Positions 4,414 through 12,469 of a DNA stretch of 32,178 bases are shown here, in pieces. The position numbers were made by a program, and so were the translations under genes. Each line of letters opens with the position of its first letter. Position 1 is the stretch's first letter. A model generated the notes under the pieces. That model made no database searches. It had not been told where the DNA came from and saw only the letters and a list, made by a program, of their open reading frames with translations. This DNA is from Candidatus Desulfolinea nitratireducens. Its GTDB lineage: Bacteria; Chloroflexota; Anaerolineae; Anaerolineales; Villigracilaceae. The stretch is taken from assembly GCA_014382535.1 (NCBI GenBank), contig JACNJN010000060.1:1-32178 (forward strand), in the 5' to 3' direction.

Positions 4414-5178
4414 TTATCCCACCGCCGTACGCCCCCAAATATAGTGCGTTGGTACATATAAAACCCGTTCCCCGTTCAGCCATGCGGCCTTATCCAAGGC
4501 ATTCAATTTTTGGAGGCGTTCATCCGCAATTTGTCCCGCTAAATCAGATTCCAATATTGCCCATTCCAATTCCCGTTCCTCCTCGCTGAGCGGATCGCTC
4601 CCTTCTTTTGAAATTGCCCCCGCTTCAATAATGTTGATCCCAGCTTCGAAAAAAAGCTCCGCTAAATTTTCGCCGATACCAGGATCCGCTCCTTGCCGCC
4701 GCAGCGCATCTCTTTGCCATTTTCCCAGTGGTTCAAGAGCCGCAGGCTTGTCTACGCGGTGGTTATAATCAGGTTCGGCAAAAGCGATGATATCGCCACC
4801 GGCCTTGGTCACACGGGTCATTTCGCGGATCGCATCCAGTGGGTGCGGCAACCAGAGAAGCAGGAAGTGGCAGAAAACGACCTCGAAGCTTTCAATAGCA
4901 TAGGGAAGGGAAAAAGCATCGCCGCAGGTTAACGGGGGTGAAATTAGGATATTGGATTTTGCCTCTTTAAGGGAGGCAAACTGAATATCGAGTCCGTGCA
5001 CGGTGGCCGGTGTGGAAATTTCTGAAAGTATCGCCCCTGTCCCACAGCCTACTTCAAGGGCGCGAGAGGCCTGATCCAATCCTGCTTCTTTAAAGAGGTA
5101 AGCGCGCAGCTCACGAGTCCAGTTGGCCTGCTGGACGTAACGGTTATGCCACCCCCCCTTTAATTCCCCCCCGCTCAC
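4414..5178 (-). CDS. Class I SAM-dependent methyltransferase
   Basis: This is a Rossmann-fold methyltransferase. Motif I is ALEVGCGTGAILSEI, the acidic residue of motif II lies in VHGLDIQFASLKEA, and CGDAFSLPYAIESFEVVFCHFLLLWL followed by REMTRVTKAGGDIIAFAEPDY gives motifs III-V, as in UbiE/Methyltransf_11 enzymes. The substrate is not evident. The start is uncertain. No ATG lies in frame before the conserved WHNRYVQQANWT segment, and the region upstream is a G/C-rich palindromic repeat. The GTG at 5178, inside that repeat, gives 254 residues. A TTG at 5238 is the only earlier option and would overlap the phosphatase gene. A repeat insertion may have replaced the original start. Confidence 0.8.
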   Translation of the reverse strand: MSGGELKGGWHNRYVQQANWTRELRAYLFKEAGLDQASRALEVGCGTGAILSEISTPATVHGLDIQFASLKEAKSNILISPPLTCGDAFSLPYAIESFEVVFCHFLLLWLPHPLDAIREMTRVTKAGGDIIAFAEPDYNHRVDKPAALEPLGKWQRDALRRQGADPGIGENLAELFFEAGINIIEAGAISKEGSDPLSEEERELEWAILESDLAGQIADERLQKLNALDKAAWLNGERVLYVPTHYIWGRTAVG

Positions 5179-5212
5179 GGGGGGGATGCCCAGGTGGGCA
5201 GGGGAGGGAGGA
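5151..5212. repeat. G/C-rich palindromic repeat at the phosphatase-methyltransferase junction
   Basis: Two hairpins follow each other: a C7/G7 stem (about 5165-5186) around GCTCA, and TGCCCA/TGGGCA (about 5187-5201) around GG. Runs of C and G flank them. The composition differs sharply from neighbouring coding DNA and looks like a dispersed REP-type element. It supplies the N-terminal codons of the methyltransferase reading frame. Confidence 0.6.
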
Positions 5213-5215
5213 GAG

Positions 5216-5716
5216 TCATTTCTTCCAGTTCCGCACAAAATCTTTTTGATCCTCTGTTTGCGGAGATGGGGCGTAATAACAAAGCTGATCCACTTTTAGC
5301 AGGGCTTCTGCGCCATCCAAGCCACTCTCGACAAAATAACAGCCAACTGCCGTACCTGTGCGCCCCATCCCTGCCCAACAATGGATATATGGTTTGCCTC
5401 CATCGGCTAGGGCCTGGTGGATGGTATCGAGGATGACGCGCATTTCTTTGGGTGAAGGGATGCCAAAATCGCCAATGGAGAAGCGATAATAATTGGTTTC
5501 AATCTGATAATAGCCAGCTCTTTCGAGCAAAACATGTTCGTAGGGGATGCGTTCACCGGGCGTGGTCAGGTCGATATAAGTGGTGATGCCGGCTTCAAGG
5601 AGGGCGTCTATCCGATTTTCGGTTTTGCCTTCATTAAAGCGATGGCCCGGGTATTCACCCGCCATAAATTTATCGGGCAGGACCCAGTAGGAGTTGTAAC
5701 GAGGGAGTTTAGACAT
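5216..5716 (-). CDS. Dual-specificity/tyrosine protein phosphatase-like protein
   Basis: The Cys-based phosphatase signature YIHCWAGMGRTGTAVG (HC-x5-R) is intact and gives the catalytic Cys and phosphate-binding Arg. A likely general-acid Asp lies in YRFSIGDFGIPSP. The N-terminal segment (YWVLPDKFMAGEYPG) is typical of small bacterial dual-specificity phosphatases. The product has 166 residues from ATG 5716, which overlaps the PilZ stop by 8 nt. A longer reading frame to 5770 would run well into the PilZ gene and lacks a better ribosome site. The substrate is unknown. Coupling to a PilZ gene suggests a signalling role, but this is inference. Confidence 0.82.
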   Translation of the reverse strand: MSKLPRYNSYWVLPDKFMAGEYPGHRFNEGKTENRIDALLEAGITTYIDLTTPGERIPYEHVLLERAGYYQIETNYYRFSIGDFGIPSPKEMRVILDTIHQALADGGKPYIHCWAGMGRTGTAVGCYFVESGLDGAEALLKVDQLCYYAPSPQTEDQKDFVRNWKK

Positions 5717-6101
5717 GATTTGGTTCGCTGGCGGCGGCTTGGTTATCGACATCATCGCGGCGAAACTCATAGGTTTCGATCATTTGAGTGATAATGGGTT
5801 TTTTTTCTTCAGCAAGTTCGACGAATTGGAAGCCAACATTCATGAGCTTGGGATCCAGGTCAGGGCGGCTCCAGGCAACGCGGACCTTAACCTTTAGTAT
5901 ATTTTCTGTAAATGAAGGGATCTCAGGCAGATCAATATATAACTCGATTTCTTTGTTTACTTCCAGATCTTCTTTGCTGATCACCATTAATCCATCCAGG
6001 GTGATGTCACAAAGATAACCAAGTATCTTCCCCGTGCTTTGTTCATAGACATTTGAGTAAGCCATCAGATATTTGCGAGGGAGTTTTCGCTTTTCTTCCA
6101 T
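5709..6101 (-). CDS. PilZ-domain protein (putative c-di-GMP binding)
   Basis: This is a 130-residue single-domain protein. It starts with EEKRKLPRKYLM, which contains the R-x3-R pattern of PilZ domains, followed by the second motif DITLDGLMV (D-x-S/T-x-x-G) and the beta-barrel strands VKVRVAWSRPDLDPKLMNVGFQFVEL. Both c-di-GMP contact motifs are therefore present. The start at 6101 is chosen because AAGGAGG sits 8 nt upstream. A frame extension to 6131 would overlap the preceding gene. It overlaps the phosphatase gene at its 3' end. Confidence 0.85.
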   Translation of the reverse strand: MEEKRKLPRKYLMAYSNVYEQSTGKILGYLCDITLDGLMVISKEDLEVNKEIELYIDLPEIPSFTENILKVKVRVAWSRPDLDPKLMNVGFQFVELAEEKKPIITQMIETYEFRRDDVDNQAAASEPNHV

Positions 6102-6114
6102 AAGTTGAACCTCC

Positions 6115-6558
6115 TTATTTGGTGGTTTCAATAATATCTTCTGTTAATTGCGCTGCGTATCGGACCAGCTGCGGACAAGTCGTATTGAATACTCCACTAT
6201 TTCGTGCTTTTTCCAGATCTTCTGACGTATTGAGATGATGACCAAGCAAATCCCTGCAAAGGAGTGAGCCATTTTCTTCTTTGAAACGTTGCATAAGTTT
6301 CTGACTGGCCTGGCGGACCTTTTCTTCATCATCCGCTATCTCCGAGCCATATTTCAACCCCAAAGTCATCAAGGCGCCAGTGACTGCGCCGCAAACCTCG
6401 CCCTGACGAACCATTCCGCCGCCAAAGGCTGAGGCTATCTTGAGGGCAGCCTCCTGCGATAGTCCAAGCTCAGGCGCGAAAGCTGAGAAAACAGATTGAG
6501 AGCAGGAAAAACCTTTCCCAAATTGAGTAGCAGCGTATTCAATATTTTTATTTGGCAT
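6115..6558 (-). CDS. C_GCAxxG_C_C family (redox-type) protein
   Basis: This 147-residue protein has four conserved-looking cysteines: C19 (FSCSQSVF), C56 (GEVCGAVTGALMTLG), C101 (LLCRDLLG) and C128 (TTCPQLVRYAA). The pattern and the surrounding sequence match the C_GCAxxG_C_C family. Members are predicted to be redox-active or metal-binding, without a firmly established role. There is no signal peptide. It begins 11 bp after the ICMT-like gene and ends close to the PilZ gene, within the same minus-strand run. A link to the cysteine-rich DUF2207 tail encoded upstream is possible but only inferred. Confidence 0.8.
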   Translation of the reverse strand: MPNKNIEYAATQFGKGFSCSQSVFSAFAPELGLSQEAALKIASAFGGGMVRQGEVCGAVTGALMTLGLKYGSEIADDEEKVRQASQKLMQRFKEENGSLLCRDLLGHHLNTSEDLEKARNSGVFNTTCPQLVRYAAQLTEDIIETTK

Positions 6559-6569
6559 GATGTAATTCC

Positions 6570-7148
6570 TTAAAGGTATGGGATGAGACGGTTCGTTTTT
6601 TTCATATAGGCACGATATTCCTCGCCAAAATGTTCCAGCATCATTTTTTCTTCTCGTGGCATCCTGGTTAGATAAAGGGGTATAAAAAGGATGAGCAGGC
6701 CGAAACCGGCAATCCAGTTATGGATCAGCAAAGGTTGGGCAATTGCCCAGATGAACATCGCCGCGTAGACTGGATGGCGCAAATGAGCGTAAACTCCCTT
6801 TGTCACCAGAACTTGTTTGGTGAGAATCTCCATCCTTGCAGACCAGTTGCTTCCCAAATCCGCGTAGGCACGCTTGTAAAGCCAAAGCGATGCGGTGAAA
6901 AGCAGTACCCCAATCCAGCCAGCCCAGTAGGGGAGCGTGTAATCAGCGAATGAGAGCCATTCGCCAAATATATAGAAAAAAGGGATCAGCTGCCAGAAGA
7001 CCCAGGTGCTTAGTTCAAGGATTATATCGCCAGGCCTGGCGACCAGGGCTACCCGCTTTTTTGCTTTATATTCACGGACGCGTGGAATATAAATGGCAAT
7101 TTGATAGATCAATAGCCCGATAATCCAAATGACATCAAATATGCTCAT
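6570..7148 (-). CDS. Isoprenylcysteine carboxyl methyltransferase (ICMT)-like membrane protein
   Basis: This 192-residue protein has about five membrane segments. The C-terminal catalytic region of the ICMT/PEMT family is present: RHPVYAAMFIWAIAQPLL for SAM binding and PREEKMMLEHFGEEYRAYMKKTNRLIPYL at the end. Eukaryotic ICMT methylates a C-terminal prenyl-cysteine. Bacterial homologues are mostly uncharacterised, and some act on lipids or quinones. The start ATG overlaps the stop of the preceding radical SAM-like gene (ATGA, 7145-7148), so the two are translationally coupled. Given the Cys-Ala tail protein in the same run, a role in modifying that tail is a testable inference, not something the sequence shows. 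Confidence 0.82.
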   Translation of the reverse strand: MSIFDVIWIIGLLIYQIAIYIPRVREYKAKKRVALVARPGDIILELSTWVFWQLIPFFYIFGEWLSFADYTLPYWAGWIGVLLFTASLWLYKRAYADLGSNWSARMEILTKQVLVTKGVYAHLRHPVYAAMFIWAIAQPLLIHNWIAGFGLLILFIPLYLTRMPREEKMMLEHFGEEYRAYMKKTNRLIPYL

Positions 7149-8293
7149 TTATTTTTCCAAATAGAAGCCCAATCATCGTGAAGGAAGTTGCCCAATATTT
7201 GATCGGGCATGCCCTGCATGGGGAGTACATCCCCGTCTGGTTCGACATAGAGCCAGACTTTGCCCGCCCCATCCGGGAAATGCTCTTTGGTGGTTTCAAG
7301 GGTGATGGGATGGTGGGCCGAGTAGGGGACTGGCAGATCCCATGTCAGCGAAATACCCAGACGAGCAGCCTGCTCCCGGGCAGACAATAGAGTCTCATCC
7401 TGATCGGGGGTACAGGTCAACGAAAGCGAGGTCACTTCGAGAGCTGCCAGCTTTTCAAGTGTCTCTCCAATGTTATCAGCATTTTTCTCAGTGATTGTCA
7501 GATGAACTGTGGTAAATAGGTCCGCTGGCATAATGGCCTCAAGGGCCTGCCAGGATTTTTTCTTTTCAGATTGAAGGAGGAAGAGCAGATGGTCGAGTCC
7601 CGTTTGCAGGAGGGTGTTTAAATATGCTGCGTTGGCTAATTTTAGTCCATCGCTGAGCAGCCCGCTGACCATGCCTTTTTCTTCAGCATAGGCAATTAAT
7701 TCTGGCAGATCCTCACGGAGGGTGGGTTCGCCTCCAGTAAAGGTAACGTGTGGGATTCCCGCAGCCCAGGCTTTGTCGAGGATAGACGTCCACTCAGCGG
7801 TGGCAAGCTCACGGTCGACTCGTTTCGTCGGCGCGTCATCAGCGGAGGCACCCTTGGGCAGCTCATAGGTTAGGGCGCAATCAAGACGCAGCGGAGCCGT
7901 TAATCCAGTCGAGTGGGGAGCGACACGGTCAAATCCCAGATAAGAGACGGGATCTACATCTTCAGTGTGGACAAGGCTATCTATTCTTTCAGAGAAGATC
8001 TGATAATCCTGCAGGGCCTGTTCTGCCTTGACATGATAGCGTTTGGAAACAGCTTCTGCAGCCTCATTTTCATCTGTCCCTTTAATGAAATGATAGGCGT
8101 ATTCTGTTGCCGTGGGGTTGAGATGCAACACTGTGGAGGCGTTCACAACAAGCAGGCTGCTCCCATCTCCGTGCATGCGCAGATGCAGGCGATAAGGAAC
8201 TTCGTCATCTTCAGGCGATTGAAAATGAAGCACACCCGCTGGCAGAGGCCTGGCGGGGGTAAAAAAATCTCGGACACTGTCGAAGATACTCAT
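7145..8293 (-). CDS. Cluster-less radical SAM-like paralogue with PqqD-like domain
   Basis: This 382-residue protein is clearly related to the protein encoded at 8324-9751. Residues about 35-110 form the same PqqD-like domain (LLVVNASTVLHLNPTATEYA). Residues 137-380 follow the radical SAM barrel, including an intact TFTGGEPTLREDLPEL (GGEP at 187-190). Where the partner has C-x3-C-x2-C, this one reads LTYELPKGASADDAPTKR with no cysteine. The whole protein has only two cysteines (139, 294), so it cannot bind the canonical SAM [4Fe-4S] cluster. It also stops before the SPASM cysteines, at the equivalent of SIWNHK. It has a good Shine-Dalgarno sequence (AAAGGAG) and begins 30 bp after its partner. 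It is probably a non-catalytic partner or scaffold. Confidence 0.85.
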   Translation of the reverse strand: MSIFDSVRDFFTPARPLPAGVLHFQSPEDDEVPYRLHLRMHGDGSSLLVVNASTVLHLNPTATEYAYHFIKGTDENEAAEAVSKRYHVKAEQALQDYQIFSERIDSLVHTEDVDPVSYLGFDRVAPHSTGLTAPLRLDCALTYELPKGASADDAPTKRVDRELATAEWTSILDKAWAAGIPHVTFTGGEPTLREDLPELIAYAEEKGMVSGLLSDGLKLANAAYLNTLLQTGLDHLLFLLQSEKKKSWQALEAIMPADLFTTVHLTITEKNADNIGETLEKLAALEVTSLSLTCTPDQDETLLSAREQAARLGISLTWDLPVPYSAHHPITLETTKEHFPDGAGKVWLYVEPDGDVLPMQGMPDQILGNFLHDDWASIWKNK

Positions 8294-8323
8294 GGAGTGC
8301 TCCTTTTTATATCTTTAAATAGT

Positions 8324-9751
8324 TTACTGAATTTCCAACATATCCAACTTCACAAAATCATCCTGCGCAAATTGAAGCGGGCAGCCACCACCACATTCGG
8401 CGAGTAAGTCACAGCCGCCACATTTTTCTGGCAGTGCCATGCGTTCGCGTAGCTGTGTTGAAAGCTTGTGATTCCAGATCGAATCCCAGCTATCGTGAAG
8501 AAGATTGCCAACTGGTTTGTAGTAAGACTGGCAGGGCAGTACCGCACCATCCGGCTCAACGCACATATTATAGAGCGCGGCTGTGCAGCCCTTGATCCCC
8601 AGATCAAGCTTCATCGGATCAAAATTACAATATTGGGTCGGGGTGTACCAGATCAGTTTTTGACCGCGCATTTCAGTTTTTAGTTTTGCGATTTCTAGCA
8701 ACGGGGCCAGTTCGCTTTCCGGCAGACCAGTGCCAACAGTTGTGCCATGACCGGAATAGATCAATGCGTTCAGTCCAATTGTAGGCACGCCCAACTTCCC
8801 CAGAAAGTCCAGAGTTGCCGGGATGGTGTGAACATTATCCTGGAGCATGGTCGTATTGGTCATCACATAAAGCGGGCTATCCAGAACGTTTTCCAGCCCG
8901 CGGATAGTTTGCCGATGCGCACCTTTGGAGAGCACCATCTGGTCGTGGATGGCAGCATCATCCGATTCGACCGTGATCTGGACGTGGTCCAGGCCAGCGG
9001 AGACCAACCGCGCGAGATAGGTTGCATCCGCTAAACGACGGGCATTTGTGTTCATCCCGGTGATCTGACCGTTTGTCTCGGCGTGGGCGACCAGCTCCGG
9101 CAAGGCCTCGACGAGGGTTGGTTCACCTCCAGTGAAGACAACATGGGGAATACCCAATTCCCAGGTGATGTCGAGAACACGTTTCCACTCCTCAACGCTC
9201 AATTCAGGGTAGTTTCGTTCGCGGGCGTTATAACAATGGGCGCAATCGTTATTGCAGCGATAGGTGAGGGCTAAATCCATTCGATAAGGTGCGCTGGGAC
9301 GGGCGCTGAAGGGCATATTCATATCCAGATCCAACTCATGGACCGGGCAGGCGCCATTGGGACGGATCAGCTCGTCGATTTGCAGGTTGATCGTTTGCAG
9401 GTCTGAAAGCACCTGCTCCCGCCCAACTGAGTAAGCATTGCGAACCGTTCTGACGATCTCTTTTACGCTTTTCTTTTCCAAGGCGAGATATGCCATCAAG
9501 GCAGCCGTCGGGTTCAGGTGCATAACCTGATTGGCGTTGACGATCAACGTCCCATGGCCGTCTGGATCAAGGCGCAGATGGATGCGCGATTTCTCCTCGC
9601 CGTTTTCGTGGCGATAATGATAAATTCGGGCGGATTCCGAAGTCTCCAGACTTTGGAATTGTTGTGTATCCCCACTTTCTGGAGACAATGGATTCCAAAA
9701 TCTCCTGATTTTTGAGATTGCGCTATTCATACCGTTAAAATTCGGGAACAT
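8324..9751 (-). CDS. Radical SAM/SPASM protein with N-terminal PqqD-like domain
   Basis: This is a 475-residue putative peptide- or protein-modifying enzyme. Residues about 55-130 form a PqqD-like domain (GTLIVNANQVMHLNPTAALM), the type of domain that recognises leader peptides in RiPP pathways. The radical SAM core begins at 158 with CNNDCAHC (C166, C170, C173) and has GGEP at 208-211. The C-terminal SPASM region offers C375, C389, C397, C407, C444, C447, C453 and C457, enough for auxiliary Fe-S clusters. GGAG lies upstream of ATG 9751. Residues about 8-40 are encoded by a REP-like repeat (9636-9735), and the paralogue downstream lacks them. The likely target is the Cys-Ala tail of the DUF2207 protein upstream. 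Confidence 0.9.
   Translation of the reverse strand: MFPNFNGMNSAISKIRRFWNPLSPESGDTQQFQSLETSESARIYHYRHENGEEKSRIHLRLDPDGHGTLIVNANQVMHLNPTAALMAYLALEKKSVKEIVRTVRNAYSVGREQVLSDLQTINLQIDELIRPNGACPVHELDLDMNMPFSARPSAPYRMDLALTYRCNNDCAHCYNARERNYPELSVEEWKRVLDITWELGIPHVVFTGGEPTLVEALPELVAHAETNGQITGMNTNARRLADATYLARLVSAGLDHVQITVESDDAAIHDQMVLSKGAHRQTIRGLENVLDSPLYVMTNTTMLQDNVHTIPATLDFLGKLGVPTIGLNALIYSGHGTTVGTGLPESELAPLLEIAKLKTEMRGQKLIWYTPTQYCNFDPMKLDLGIKGCTAALYNMCVEPDGAVLPCQSYYKPVGNLLHDSWDSIWNHKLSTQLRERMALPEKCGGCDLLAECGGGCPLQFAQDDFVKLDMLEIQ
9636..9735. repeat. REP-like repeat inside the 5' end of the radical SAM gene
   Basis: It contains imperfect palindromes (TTCCGAAGTCTCCAGACTTTGGAA at about 9636-9659, in two arms; CCACTTTCTGGAGACAATGG; ATTCCAAAATCTCCTGATTT). 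It ends in GCGCTAT and matches 10331-10386 in the same orientation. It encodes about residues 8-40 of the radical SAM protein. It is probably a substrate repeat of the transposase at 9774-10268. Confidence 0.65.
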
Positions 9752-9773
9752 TATTTACTTCTCCATCTGTATG

Positions 9774-10268
9774 TTAACCAGTCCAGGTATCTATTGATAA
9801 AAATGTACGGTAATTGCTAAAAGCGTACTCTTCAGCTTGATCTACAATTCCATGTTTGACTGGGTTTAAAAAGACATAGTTTAATCGCGCCTGATAATCT
9901 TGCTCTGATCGTATGCATGAATCCCAATAGTTCCACCAAACCTTGCGTCCAGGAGTTTGGTCTTCGGCATTCCACTTCCTGGCGGTAAATTTATGATAAC
10001 TTGCGATAAATTTAGGCATATTTATCTTTTTTTCAGGTGATCGAACAATAGCGTGGTAGTGATTGTTAAGAACAACCCAAGCAATGACTACCCAATGATA
10101 AATTTCAGATGCCTTTAGGAATGCACTTATCCAATCGAGTTTGCGGTTGTCAGACTGTAAATAAGCTTCTTTTTTGTAAGTAGAGGCAGTAAGCATATAA
10201 AGTCTATCCGTCAAAAAGAGATGTGGCGGGTTGTGCTTTGCTTGTTTGAATATGCCATTATCGCGCAT
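9774..10268 (-). CDS. REP-associated tyrosine transposase (RAYT, IS200-like Y1 family)
   Basis: This 164-residue protein carries the HUH motif as LNNHYHAIVR (H70, H72). A C-terminal helix contains EQDYQARLNYVFLNPVKHGIV, in which Y131 is the probable catalytic tyrosine. The N-terminal strand HLFLTDRLYMLTAST and the WVVIAWVVL strand complete the single-domain fold. Such proteins mobilise or maintain REP palindromes rather than full insertion sequences. REP-like repeats indeed flank it on both sides in the same orientation (9636-9735 and 10331-10386), and no IS ends are seen. It interrupts the run between the DUF2207 gene and the radical SAM genes. A weak Shine-Dalgarno sequence (AGGAAG) precedes ATG 10268. 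Confidence 0.88.
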   Translation of the reverse strand: MRDNGIFKQAKHNPPHLFLTDRLYMLTASTYKKEAYLQSDNRKLDWISAFLKASEIYHWVVIAWVVLNNHYHAIVRSPEKKINMPKFIASYHKFTARKWNAEDQTPGRKVWWNYWDSCIRSEQDYQARLNYVFLNPVKHGIVDQAEEYAFSNYRTFLSIDTWTG

Positions 10269-10330
10269 TATTGCTTCCTATTAATTGCGTAGTTCGAAAT
10301 CAACAGTTTCGGAGTAGTCGTTGCAAAGTC

Positions 10331-10386
10331 CCAACGTCTCCAGACGTTGGATTCCAAAATCGCCAGATTTTGGGAATGGCGCTACC
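10331..10386. repeat. REP-like repeat at the end of the DUF2207 gene
   Basis: A palindrome, CCAACGTCTCC AGACGTTGG (10331-10350), is followed by TCCAAAATC/GATTTTGGGA around GCCA. The repeat ends at GCGCTACC, which includes the stop codon of the DUF2207 gene (10382-10384). It matches the second half of 9636-9735 in the same orientation. Confidence 0.7.
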
Positions 10387-12061
10387 GTCCGCCACCAGCG
10401 CAGGCACAAGCACATCCAGCACAGGCGCAAGCACAGGCACAACCGCTACCTCCACTGCTGCGACCACTGGAAGTGGGTTTCGGCGGGGGATTGGTGACAC
10501 CAGTCACTTTGCCGGTGAAATCATTCAGATTGCCGATCACCTTATCGGAGAATCCTTGTACACCAGTGACCATCGAAGCAGCAAAATCTGCGCCGGGGAG
10601 TTGGGGCATGGAGGAGGTCAGGCTTTTCCCTGGCGTGGAGGATGTTGGGATACTGAAGGGTTTAGATGCGGAGCCAGCAGGCCGAGTGTACGAAGGATCG
10701 TAGCGTCCCCACCACATTGGCACAAAGACCGGGCCTGTGCGGAAGACATCCCGTGTACGATTGTCGAAATCCTTATCCAGCATGGTCCATTCAAGGGCCT
10801 CGTCATACATTTCGCTTTTTATTTCGGGTGTATCCGCAGCTTCGATCTGTTTCCAGGCGCGTTCCATGATATTTTTATAAAAAGCCAGTGTTTCCTTGCG
10901 ACTGAACCCCTTCATCTTCTTTTCAATGCTTTTGATCAAATTGACGGTCACTTTTTGGAGTTTCTTGCGCTGATCGGCGCGGTTATTTTTCCCATCCGCG
11001 AAGGCTTCCAGAAATTCTTTTTCATATTGATGCAGTTTTTCTGGCAGCGGCGAAGCAACCTTGAGGTTTAGTGGCTCCCGTTTAATAACTTCTGCGGCAT
11101 TCTTCTTGATCACACCAAAAAGGATCATCGTCATCACTTTATCCAGTGGCTCCTGCATCAGGATCGCGGATTCGACCGCTGTCAGCCCACGTTTGATGCC
11201 GTGCCCCTCGATGGCGATCTTTGGGGAGATATATTTCATTTTTCGTTTGCGCTGAGAGATGCCGGTCAGGATGGGAATGCCGAGGAAGAAGAAGGCAAAG
11301 CAACTACACATCAGAATTAAGATAAGATTATCTTCGTTAAACCAGGATGTGTCAAAAGCGGGAGCTGTAACGATGGCAGATTCGGGGATATAACTTTTCG
11401 GGAAGGAGGCGCCAAAAGTATATTGTGTATGCCCGTTTGCATTGGGGCTATGCCAGGTATAGGTAACCCGACCGGTTGTGCTCATCGAAGCCTGTGGTTC
11501 CTGGTCCCCGGGCCAATTTGATGGAAGATGGTAACGGGGCTCATCCGGCTGAATGCCGGTTGGGAGGTGCAGCGATACAGTCAGATCGGTTGAACCGGTG
11601 ACATATTGGCTGCCAAACCAGGTTGTGCCGAAGACTGCGCTGGCATAAGTTTCATCATCATCGTCGGTGTAGAATACATTTTCAATTTTCCCAACGTATA
11701 CATGCACTTTTCCACGCCCGCCAGGAGGAATTGCATAGCTTCCCATATCAACAGCTATGCCATCACCGCTGCCCTGATAGTCGCTGTCAATCGAAACAGC
11801 GTGACCATCTACGTCAGCAACGATACTATTCCAGTCATACCCGGGATGTGGCATGCCCACATCCACGAAATCAATCACATGTGCACCGGGGTTATTTTTA
11901 AAGACAAAGGTGTAATCCAGGGACATGGTCCCATCGTCATTAAAATAAACATGCACAACCTCTTCCTCCAAAATAAAGGAATATGATTGTGCGAGCACGG
12001 TGGATGTTAAACTAAAAACGAGAAGAATAACAATTAAGAAAGCAATTAATCGTGGCTTCAT
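10382..12061 (-). CDS. DUF2207 membrane protein with Cys-Ala repeat C-terminus
   Basis: This 559-residue protein has an N-terminal signal peptide (residues 1-25, cleavage near VLAQS) and an extracytoplasmic beta-rich DUF2207 domain (about 26-235). One or two membrane segments follow (about 245-268, ILILMCSCFAFFFLGIPILTGI). A cytoplasmic region (270-470) is charged and helical. A Ser/Pro-rich linker leads to the extreme C-terminus: Gly, then four Cys-Ala pairs, Gly, three Cys-Ala pairs and Gly-Gly-Gly-Arg. Many DUF2207 proteins end in Gly-rich low complexity, and here seven alternating cysteines replace it. By topology the tail is cytoplasmic and so accessible to a cytoplasmic radical SAM enzyme. 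The start has a strong AAGGAGGAGG. The stop codon lies in a REP-like repeat. Confidence 0.88.
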   Translation of the reverse strand: MKPRLIAFLIVILLVFSLTSTVLAQSYSFILEEEVVHVYFNDDGTMSLDYTFVFKNNPGAHVIDFVDVGMPHPGYDWNSIVADVDGHAVSIDSDYQGSGDGIAVDMGSYAIPPGGRGKVHVYVGKIENVFYTDDDDETYASAVFGTTWFGSQYVTGSTDLTVSLHLPTGIQPDEPRYHLPSNWPGDQEPQASMSTTGRVTYTWHSPNANGHTQYTFGASFPKSYIPESAIVTAPAFDTSWFNEDNLILILMCSCFAFFFLGIPILTGISQRKRKMKYISPKIAIEGHGIKRGLTAVESAILMQEPLDKVMTMILFGVIKKNAAEVIKREPLNLKVASPLPEKLHQYEKEFLEAFADGKNNRADQRKKLQKVTVNLIKSIEKKMKGFSRKETLAFYKNIMERAWKQIEAADTPEIKSEMYDEALEWTMLDKDFDNRTRDVFRTGPVFVPMWWGRYDPSYTRPAGSASKPFSIPTSSTPGKSLTSSMPQLPGADFAASMVTGVQGFSDKVIGNLNDFTGKVTGVTNPPPKPTSSGRSSGGSGCACACACAGCACACAGGGR

Positions 12062-12112
12062 CTGGCCTCCTCCTTAGGGTACTGGTAACCCTATTAATAC
12101 TTTACGATATTT

Positions 12113-12469
12113 CTACCACTTTGGTTCTTCGGTTAATTGATAGCTTGTATCACAATATGGACAAACCACCACTGGTGCGCCCGCGACCATTTTGATGTTT
12201 TTACTGGAAAGTGAACCGCCACAAGATTGGCATTTAAGTGTATCGAGACTGACTTCACCGGGTAGATCTATATTTACCGAGATATTCTGTTCCCCTTCGG
12301 CTGCTTTTGATTTTCGTTGTGCGAACCAGATCAGACCAAAGCCGATTGCCACGCTCAAGCCACCCACGCAAATCCAGGCTGGCTGCGGATTAGAGCCAAA
12401 TGCCCCCCAGATAAACATGACACCAAAAAAGATCAGAATAGCAGCTGCGATATATGCAATCATTTTCAT
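12113..12469 (-). CDS. Membrane protein with C-terminal zinc ribbon
   Basis: This 118-residue protein has two membrane helices (about 4-24 and 32-50), a cytoplasmic acidic linker (GEQNISVNIDLPGEVS), and a zinc ribbon made by CQSC (near 80-83) and CPYC (near 103-106), which enclose GGSLSSKNIKMVAGAPVVV. The Shine-Dalgarno sequence GGAGGAGG precedes ATG 12469. It is the first gene of the minus-strand run and lies 51 bp upstream of the DUF2207 gene. Its function is unknown. A metal-binding or protein-contact role next to a cysteine-rich membrane protein is plausible. Confidence 0.75.
   Translation of the reverse strand: MKMIAYIAAAILIFFGVMFIWGAFGSNPQPAWICVGGLSVAIGFGLIWFAQRKSKAAEGEQNISVNIDLPGEVSLDTLKCQSCGGSLSSKNIKMVAGAPVVVCPYCDTSYQLTEEPKW

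Follow-up and report, generated by a model that had tools for sequence, protein, structure and literature searches.

Enzymes of the PqqD-radical SAM-SPASM type normally act on small peptides. The sactisynthases, which include the sactionine synthase SkfB (PMC6231123), combine an RRE, a radical SAM domain and a SPASM or Twitch domain. Large proteins can also be modified by such chemistry, as QhpD introduces thioethers into the gamma subunit of quinohemoprotein amine dehydrogenase, and Ala can accept the thioether, as it does in Trn-beta and ruminococcin C (PMC8172795). TrnC and TrnD form a two-enzyme complex in which the radical chemistry of only one partner is strictly needed (PMC12093266). 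Membrane proteins of the TIGR04222 family carry Cys-containing tails, predicted to be periplasmic, and have been proposed as substrates of MNIO (DUF692) enzymes (PMC12452194).

We analysed a window of 32,178 nt from an Anaerolineae (Chloroflexota) genome in which a membrane protein with a Cys-Ala tail (SUB, the putative substrate) is encoded together with a radical SAM enzyme (RSAM, the putative tail maturase) and a cluster-less paralogue (PSAM). We consider it likely that these genes form a maturation cassette in which RSAM, helped by PSAM, modifies the tail of membrane-anchored SUB. The domain order of RSAM is that of SkfB and the sactisynthases; however, SUB is a 559-aa membrane protein rather than a short leader-core peptide, and the locus has the extra cluster-less paralogue. 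QhpD, likewise of the SPASM radical SAM type, forms cysteine cross-links inside a functional protein (PMC8172795), but its acceptors are Asp and Glu, which are absent from the SUB tail. With the TIGR04222-MNIO systems the locus shares a Gly/Ser-rich, Cys-containing C-terminal tail on a membrane protein whose gene lies beside that of a Cys-modifying enzyme (PMC12452194), whereas here a radical SAM enzyme replaces the MNIO, the tail is a strict repeat, and it is predicted to be cytoplasmic instead of periplasmic. SUB also resembles DUF2207 proteins in its succession of signal peptide, beta ectodomain, TM helix and cytoplasmic domain, although SUB itself has no DUF2207 match. No published description of a SUB/RSAM cassette was found among open-licence papers other than bioRxiv preprints, which is weak evidence of novelty.

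Gene order and co-occurrence of SUB and RSAM

The five genes listed in the first-pass annotation are all present on the minus strand between 6570 and 12469. They encode a small membrane protein with a C-terminal zinc ribbon, CQSC...CPYC (ZNR; 12113-12469, from the ORF and homologues), SUB (10382-12061, from the ORF and an AlphaFold model), RSAM (8324-9751, by Pfam), PSAM (7145-8293) and an ICMT-like methyltransferase (6570-7148; NF040696, 195.6 bits), which overlaps PSAM by the 4 nt already reported. That gene list had missed a REP-associated tyrosine transposase (RAYT) between SUB and RSAM (9774-10268, minus strand; NF047646, 99.3 bits, cut-off 80), and it had counted the ICMT as a cassette member. 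We rule out the latter, since the ICMT is found in only 3 of 42 loci, whereas a class I SAM-dependent methyltransferase lying beyond the five genes (MT; 4414-5238, minus strand; Methyltransf_11, 65.0 bits) follows SUB in 31, with PSAM as its immediate predecessor in order-level loci L107-L111 and L113.

Several other neighbours recur over the same 42 loci, and all of these counts are lower bounds because contig ends truncate some of the loci. A ZNR homologue lies upstream of SUB in 39. Optional neighbours include a phosphatase homologue (21 loci; in the window a DSP-type homologue at 5216-5770, by Pfam), a PAS protein (19), a C_GCAxxG_C_C family protein (8; 6115-6558, PF09719, 121.7 bits) and a PilZ-domain protein (5; 5709-6131, by Pfam), the window copies all on the minus strand. 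A protein family of about 335-340 aa with no Pfam match is encoded near RSAM or PSAM in 18 loci, for example at L042:7688-8692 (plus strand) and L049:8926-9936 (minus strand).

RAYT is an insertion and not part of the system, and it is present in 4 of 42 loci; in L036, L041 and L125 it likewise sits between SUB and RSAM. In the window it is flanked by REP-like repeats, and together they span 9630-10384. One copy, at 10330-10384 (unstranded) downstream of the SUB stop codon, is a 76% repeat of that at 9671-9725, which encodes about residues 9-27 of RSAM. Because this second copy falls within the coding region, the N-terminus of RSAM is partly REP-derived in the window genome.

SUB and RSAM are nearly always found together. 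Among 150 genomes of the family, 118 have SUB homologues and 115 have both genes; three have SUB only (these are 65, 66 and 83% complete), two have RSAM only and 30 have neither. The association is strong (odds ratio 575, Fisher p 8e-26), although the genomes share ancestry and the counts are not independent, so that this p value overstates independence. In a sample of 301 genomes from the phylum, the identical 20 carry SUB, RSAM and the doubled CACACAG motif; a 21st SUB match, in G285, is weak (E 5.8e-5), covers part of the ectodomain only and comes with no tail motif.

Gene order is equally constant. In 43 of 43 loci SUB is followed directly by RSAM in the same orientation, with a median gap of 35 nt, and PSAM follows RSAM on that strand in 40. 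Two of the loci lacking PSAM (L118 and L135) stop at a contig edge, and the third, L112, has RSAM without PSAM; the pair of PqqD-radical SAM genes claimed in the first-pass annotation is thus usual and not obligatory. The pattern it had named as speaking against its idea, the tail without the radical SAM gene or the reverse, was seen in none of the intact loci. We inspected two exceptions to the linkage, and both appear to be damaged loci: in L133 the 5′ part of RSAM is lost and SUB is gone, and in L130 PSAM alone is left. Three families of the order have the cassette, and so does one genome from a different class (G159, a bin with 8% estimated contamination), a distribution that speaks against a gene order simply inherited.

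The Cys-Ala tail and its putative maturase

SUB consists of a signal peptide, a beta ectodomain (residues 29-221), a TM helix (243-276), a helical cytoplasmic domain, a conserved helix, a Gly/Ser linker and the tail. It has no match to any Pfam or NCBIfam model, and a sequence search of solved structures gave nothing relevant. The AlphaFold model, of modest confidence (mean pLDDT 67.9), begins with an N-terminal helix (the signal peptide), the beta ectodomain and a long TM helix at 243-276. These are followed by a helical cytoplasmic region and a linker modelled with low confidence, after which two paired helices at 490-523 lead to a disordered tail. The TM helix terminates in the basic stretch SQRKRKMK. 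By the positive-inside rule, an established principle, applied to this helix with its basic end, the tail is predicted to be cytoplasmic; SUB would be a single-pass membrane protein with its ectodomain outside, which fits the earlier proposal that the substrate is the cytoplasmic tail of a membrane-anchored protein. By Foldseek (E about 1e-6, TM-scores low), the predicted fold of residues 29-221 is similar to the N-terminal beta domain of M1 aminopeptidases and OST1, which gives no clue to function.

In the window SUB ends in seven Cys-Ala pairs, as first reported, arranged as four pairs, a Gly and three pairs and followed by GGGR (CACACACAGCACACAGGGR; residues 541-559, 10385-10441, minus strand), and the invariance of this tail marks it as the putative modification site. 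The pattern (CA)3-5-G/A-(CA)3-GGGR-stop is intact in 119 of 120 genomes read, while identity elsewhere in the protein is about 60%. We found CACACACAGCACACAGGGR in 93 genomes, CACACAGCACACAGGGR in 18, CACACACACAGCACACAGGGR in seven and CACACAACACACAGGGR in one; the single further form, CACGRACAGCACACAGGGR, belongs to G005. For the last 17 codons, 119 genomes have 118 DNA versions between them, which differ only synonymously save for one Gly/Ala change. One tail peptide written in 118 ways points to selection on the peptide and rules out a DNA repeat or a compositional artefact.

Over 41 full-length SUBs, the mean majority-residue frequency is 0.99 in the tail and 0.32-0.81 elsewhere, with 0.63 in the ectodomain and 0.71-0.80 in the cytoplasmic domain. 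Residues 487-528 (10478-10603, minus strand), which comprise a conserved helix also seen in the model and the motif TNPPPK, reach 0.73 between variable linkers of 0.32 (the first) and 0.63, and we propose this stretch as a candidate leader-like recognition segment.

The tail also occurs on a second type of protein, a short paralogue of SUB (255 aa; L135:3114-3881, minus strand), which lacks the ectodomain but has the exact tail and adjoins a full-length SUB and RSAM. Parts of SUB are also found elsewhere. A homologue of the cytoplasmic domain with no tail lies more than 20 kb from the radical SAM gene in genome G052 (L131:8794-9504, minus strand), and an 878-aa protein with kinase and sulfatase-modifying-factor domains (L132:6442-9078, minus strand) matches the SUB ectodomain profile with 151.6 bits. 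A search of the phylum for Cys-Ala tails on other proteins returned ten single CACACAG matches, none of them C-terminal and with an in-frame reading that looks like chance; the reversed pattern, used as a control, gave similarly scattered single matches. Neither a SUB nor an RSAM homologue lies near the match in L102.

RSAM has the cluster motif, SPASM cysteines and RRE of a RiPP-type radical SAM/SPASM maturase. As the first-pass annotation had it, this is a radical SAM/SPASM enzyme with a PqqD-like domain, all three Pfam matches being above cut-off (Radical_SAM 85.6 bits, SPASM 36.7 bits and PqqD PF05402 25.2 bits, cut-off 23.4). The PqqD-like RRE spans about residues 42-129 and is modelled as beta strands and then three helices (AlphaFold mean pLDDT 63.3, modest). 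The radical SAM core cysteines C166, C170 and C173 are kept in 45 of 45 homologues, as are the SPASM cysteines C375, C389, C407, C444, C447, C453 and C457, with C397 in 42 of 45. The nearest solved relatives are SkfB and PqqE by profile (SkfB E 1.8e-22) and SkfB, SuiB and PqqE by fold. Among curated maturase models RSAM reached no NCBIfam cut-off and so is assigned to no named family: the best was PqqE with 124.7 of 381 bits, and the sactipeptide and ranthipeptide models SkfB, StsB and AlbA gave 74.1 of 300, 76.6 of 625 and 54.8 of 850 bits. Also as in RiPP systems, the gene for a putative substrate with a conserved core adjoins that of the maturase (43 of 43 loci, invariant tail). A short precursor with leader removal does not apply here, as the putative substrate is membrane-bound and some 550 aa long.

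PSAM was correctly described from the outset as a cluster-less paralogue. Its PqqD-like domain scores 22.1 bits, just below the cut-off of 23.4, and Radical_SAM is matched weakly by a radical SAM-like fold without the cluster cysteines. CxxxCxxC is found in 0 of 42 homologues, while TGGExTLR is kept in 38. PSAM is a putative partner of RSAM.

Distant (CHSA)n cassettes and a possible common scaffold

We observe SUB homologues with a different periodic tail, (CHSA)n, at L127:8666-11808 (same class) and L128:2646-5794 (another class), matching the SUB profile with E values of 2e-12 and 3.9e-17. In both, genes for a divergent RSAM, a coiled-coil-like protein and a Zn-ribbon membrane protein come after that of the homologue. 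These RSAMs are again RRE-radical SAM-SPASM proteins, with 29-34% identity to that of the window, and Ala-Cys is the unit common to the (CA)n and (CHSA)n tails. No further (CHSA)n cassettes beyond these two were found in 201 phylum genomes.

The DUF2207 label first given to SUB does not hold, as SUB has no match to PF09972 at E values up to 10. The distant homologue at L128:4049-5794 does pass the DUF2207 cut-off (25.5 against 24.4 bits), and the link between SUB and this family runs indirectly through it. The cytoplasmic domain of the same protein matches TIGR04222 with 22.8 bits (E 5.9e-5), below the 43-bit cut-off; SUB itself has no TIGR04222 match, and no MNIO was found among the window neighbours scanned. 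Tentatively, and with slightly more doubt than confidence, we suggest that SUB is a scaffold of the DUF2207/TIGR04222 kind with a periodic Cys tail that a PqqD-radical SAM enzyme with a pseudo-enzyme partner matures in place throughout the lineage.

Proposed mechanism, alternatives and significance

In the proposed mechanism, membrane insertion would leave the beta ectodomain of SUB outside and place its C-terminus in the cytoplasm. RSAM, with three predicted Fe-S clusters, would dock on SUB, probably through the 487-528 helix/NPPP segment, and would modify the unstructured (CA)n-G-(CA)3-GGGR tail, where Cys thioether cross-links from sulfur to the alpha- or beta-carbon of Ala are the most likely product. 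PSAM, unable to bind the radical cluster, would hold the substrate or be a partner without catalysis of its own. Assistance or later steps may come from the Zn-ribbon membrane protein and the class I methyltransferase, and the modified tail would remain on SUB. In this scheme the tail is very likely the substrate of RSAM. The maturation idea of the first-pass annotation stands in this central part, with which linkage, invariance and predicted topology are all consistent, and falls where it involved the ICMT and the DUF2207 label.

The product on the tail is less certain, and Cys thioethers are a plausible outcome to which we give nearly even weight. By analogy with Trn-beta, ruminococcin C, QhpD, SkfB and TrnC/TrnD, thioether formation would be the closest enzymology. 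It is possible, if somewhat unlikely, that RSAM modifies the tail in another manner, for example by oxidation of Cys to formylglycine, epimerisation or C-C bond formation, as the SPASM-type enzymes anSME, PqqE and EpeE are among its fold matches and the Ala-Cys dipeptide recurs in both kinds of tail. However, the nearest solved relative in sequence and fold is a sactionine synthase, and the tail has many thiol donors and no aromatic residue.

The tail could bind metal with or without modification. We think it unlikely, however, that it is simply an unmodified metal- or redox-active thiol cluster, like the CxC repeats of metallothionein, with RSAM making some other product such as a small molecule. 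CxC repeats do fit the binding of Cu, Zn or Cd, the neighbouring genes include one for a Zn-ribbon protein and in some loci one for a C_GCAxxG_C_C protein, and RSAM also resembles PqqE, AhbD and NirJ. Yet the tail and RSAM are linked one-to-one, the fixed Gly and the GGGR end are unneeded for metal binding, the RRE domains point to a peptide substrate, and the different Cys tail of the distant cassette pairs with a correspondingly divergent RSAM.

It is quite improbable that SUB serves as a precursor whose modified tail is released by cleavage to give a small cofactor or peptide, in the manner of PQQ or mycofactocin: the PqqE and mycofactocin maturase models do score in the background for RSAM, but no peptidase or exporter is among the identified recurrent neighbours, and this large membrane protein is itself conserved. 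Least probable of all is that shared ancestry alone keeps together genes without joint function, for although a methylmalonyl-CoA mutase gene is also syntenic in 28 of 42 loci, SUB and RSAM are present or absent jointly across the phylum, the unit is found in another class (G159, L112), and the divergent second cassette has the same SUB-RSAM pairing.

Maturation of the SUB tail by RSAM would be an apparently undescribed way of finishing a membrane protein, because such enzymes normally act on small peptides, and the tail concerned is present in more than 100 related bacteria. A repeating tail made of Cys, Ala, Gly and Arg only is an unusually simple substrate, and its chemistry is directly testable. 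The (CHSA)n cassette and the DUF2207 and TIGR04222 links suggest that unrelated Cys-modifying enzymes act on a shared scaffold, and they provide an entry point into these functionally uncharacterised families; if the scaffold reading is true, the cassette is a radical SAM counterpart of the MNIO-TIGR04222 systems, with one scaffold and exchangeable tails and maturases. SUB is kept by most genomes sampled in the bacterial family, and if its tail is modified, radical SAM-RRE chemistry reaches beyond small secreted peptides to a protein that stays permanently anchored in the membrane.
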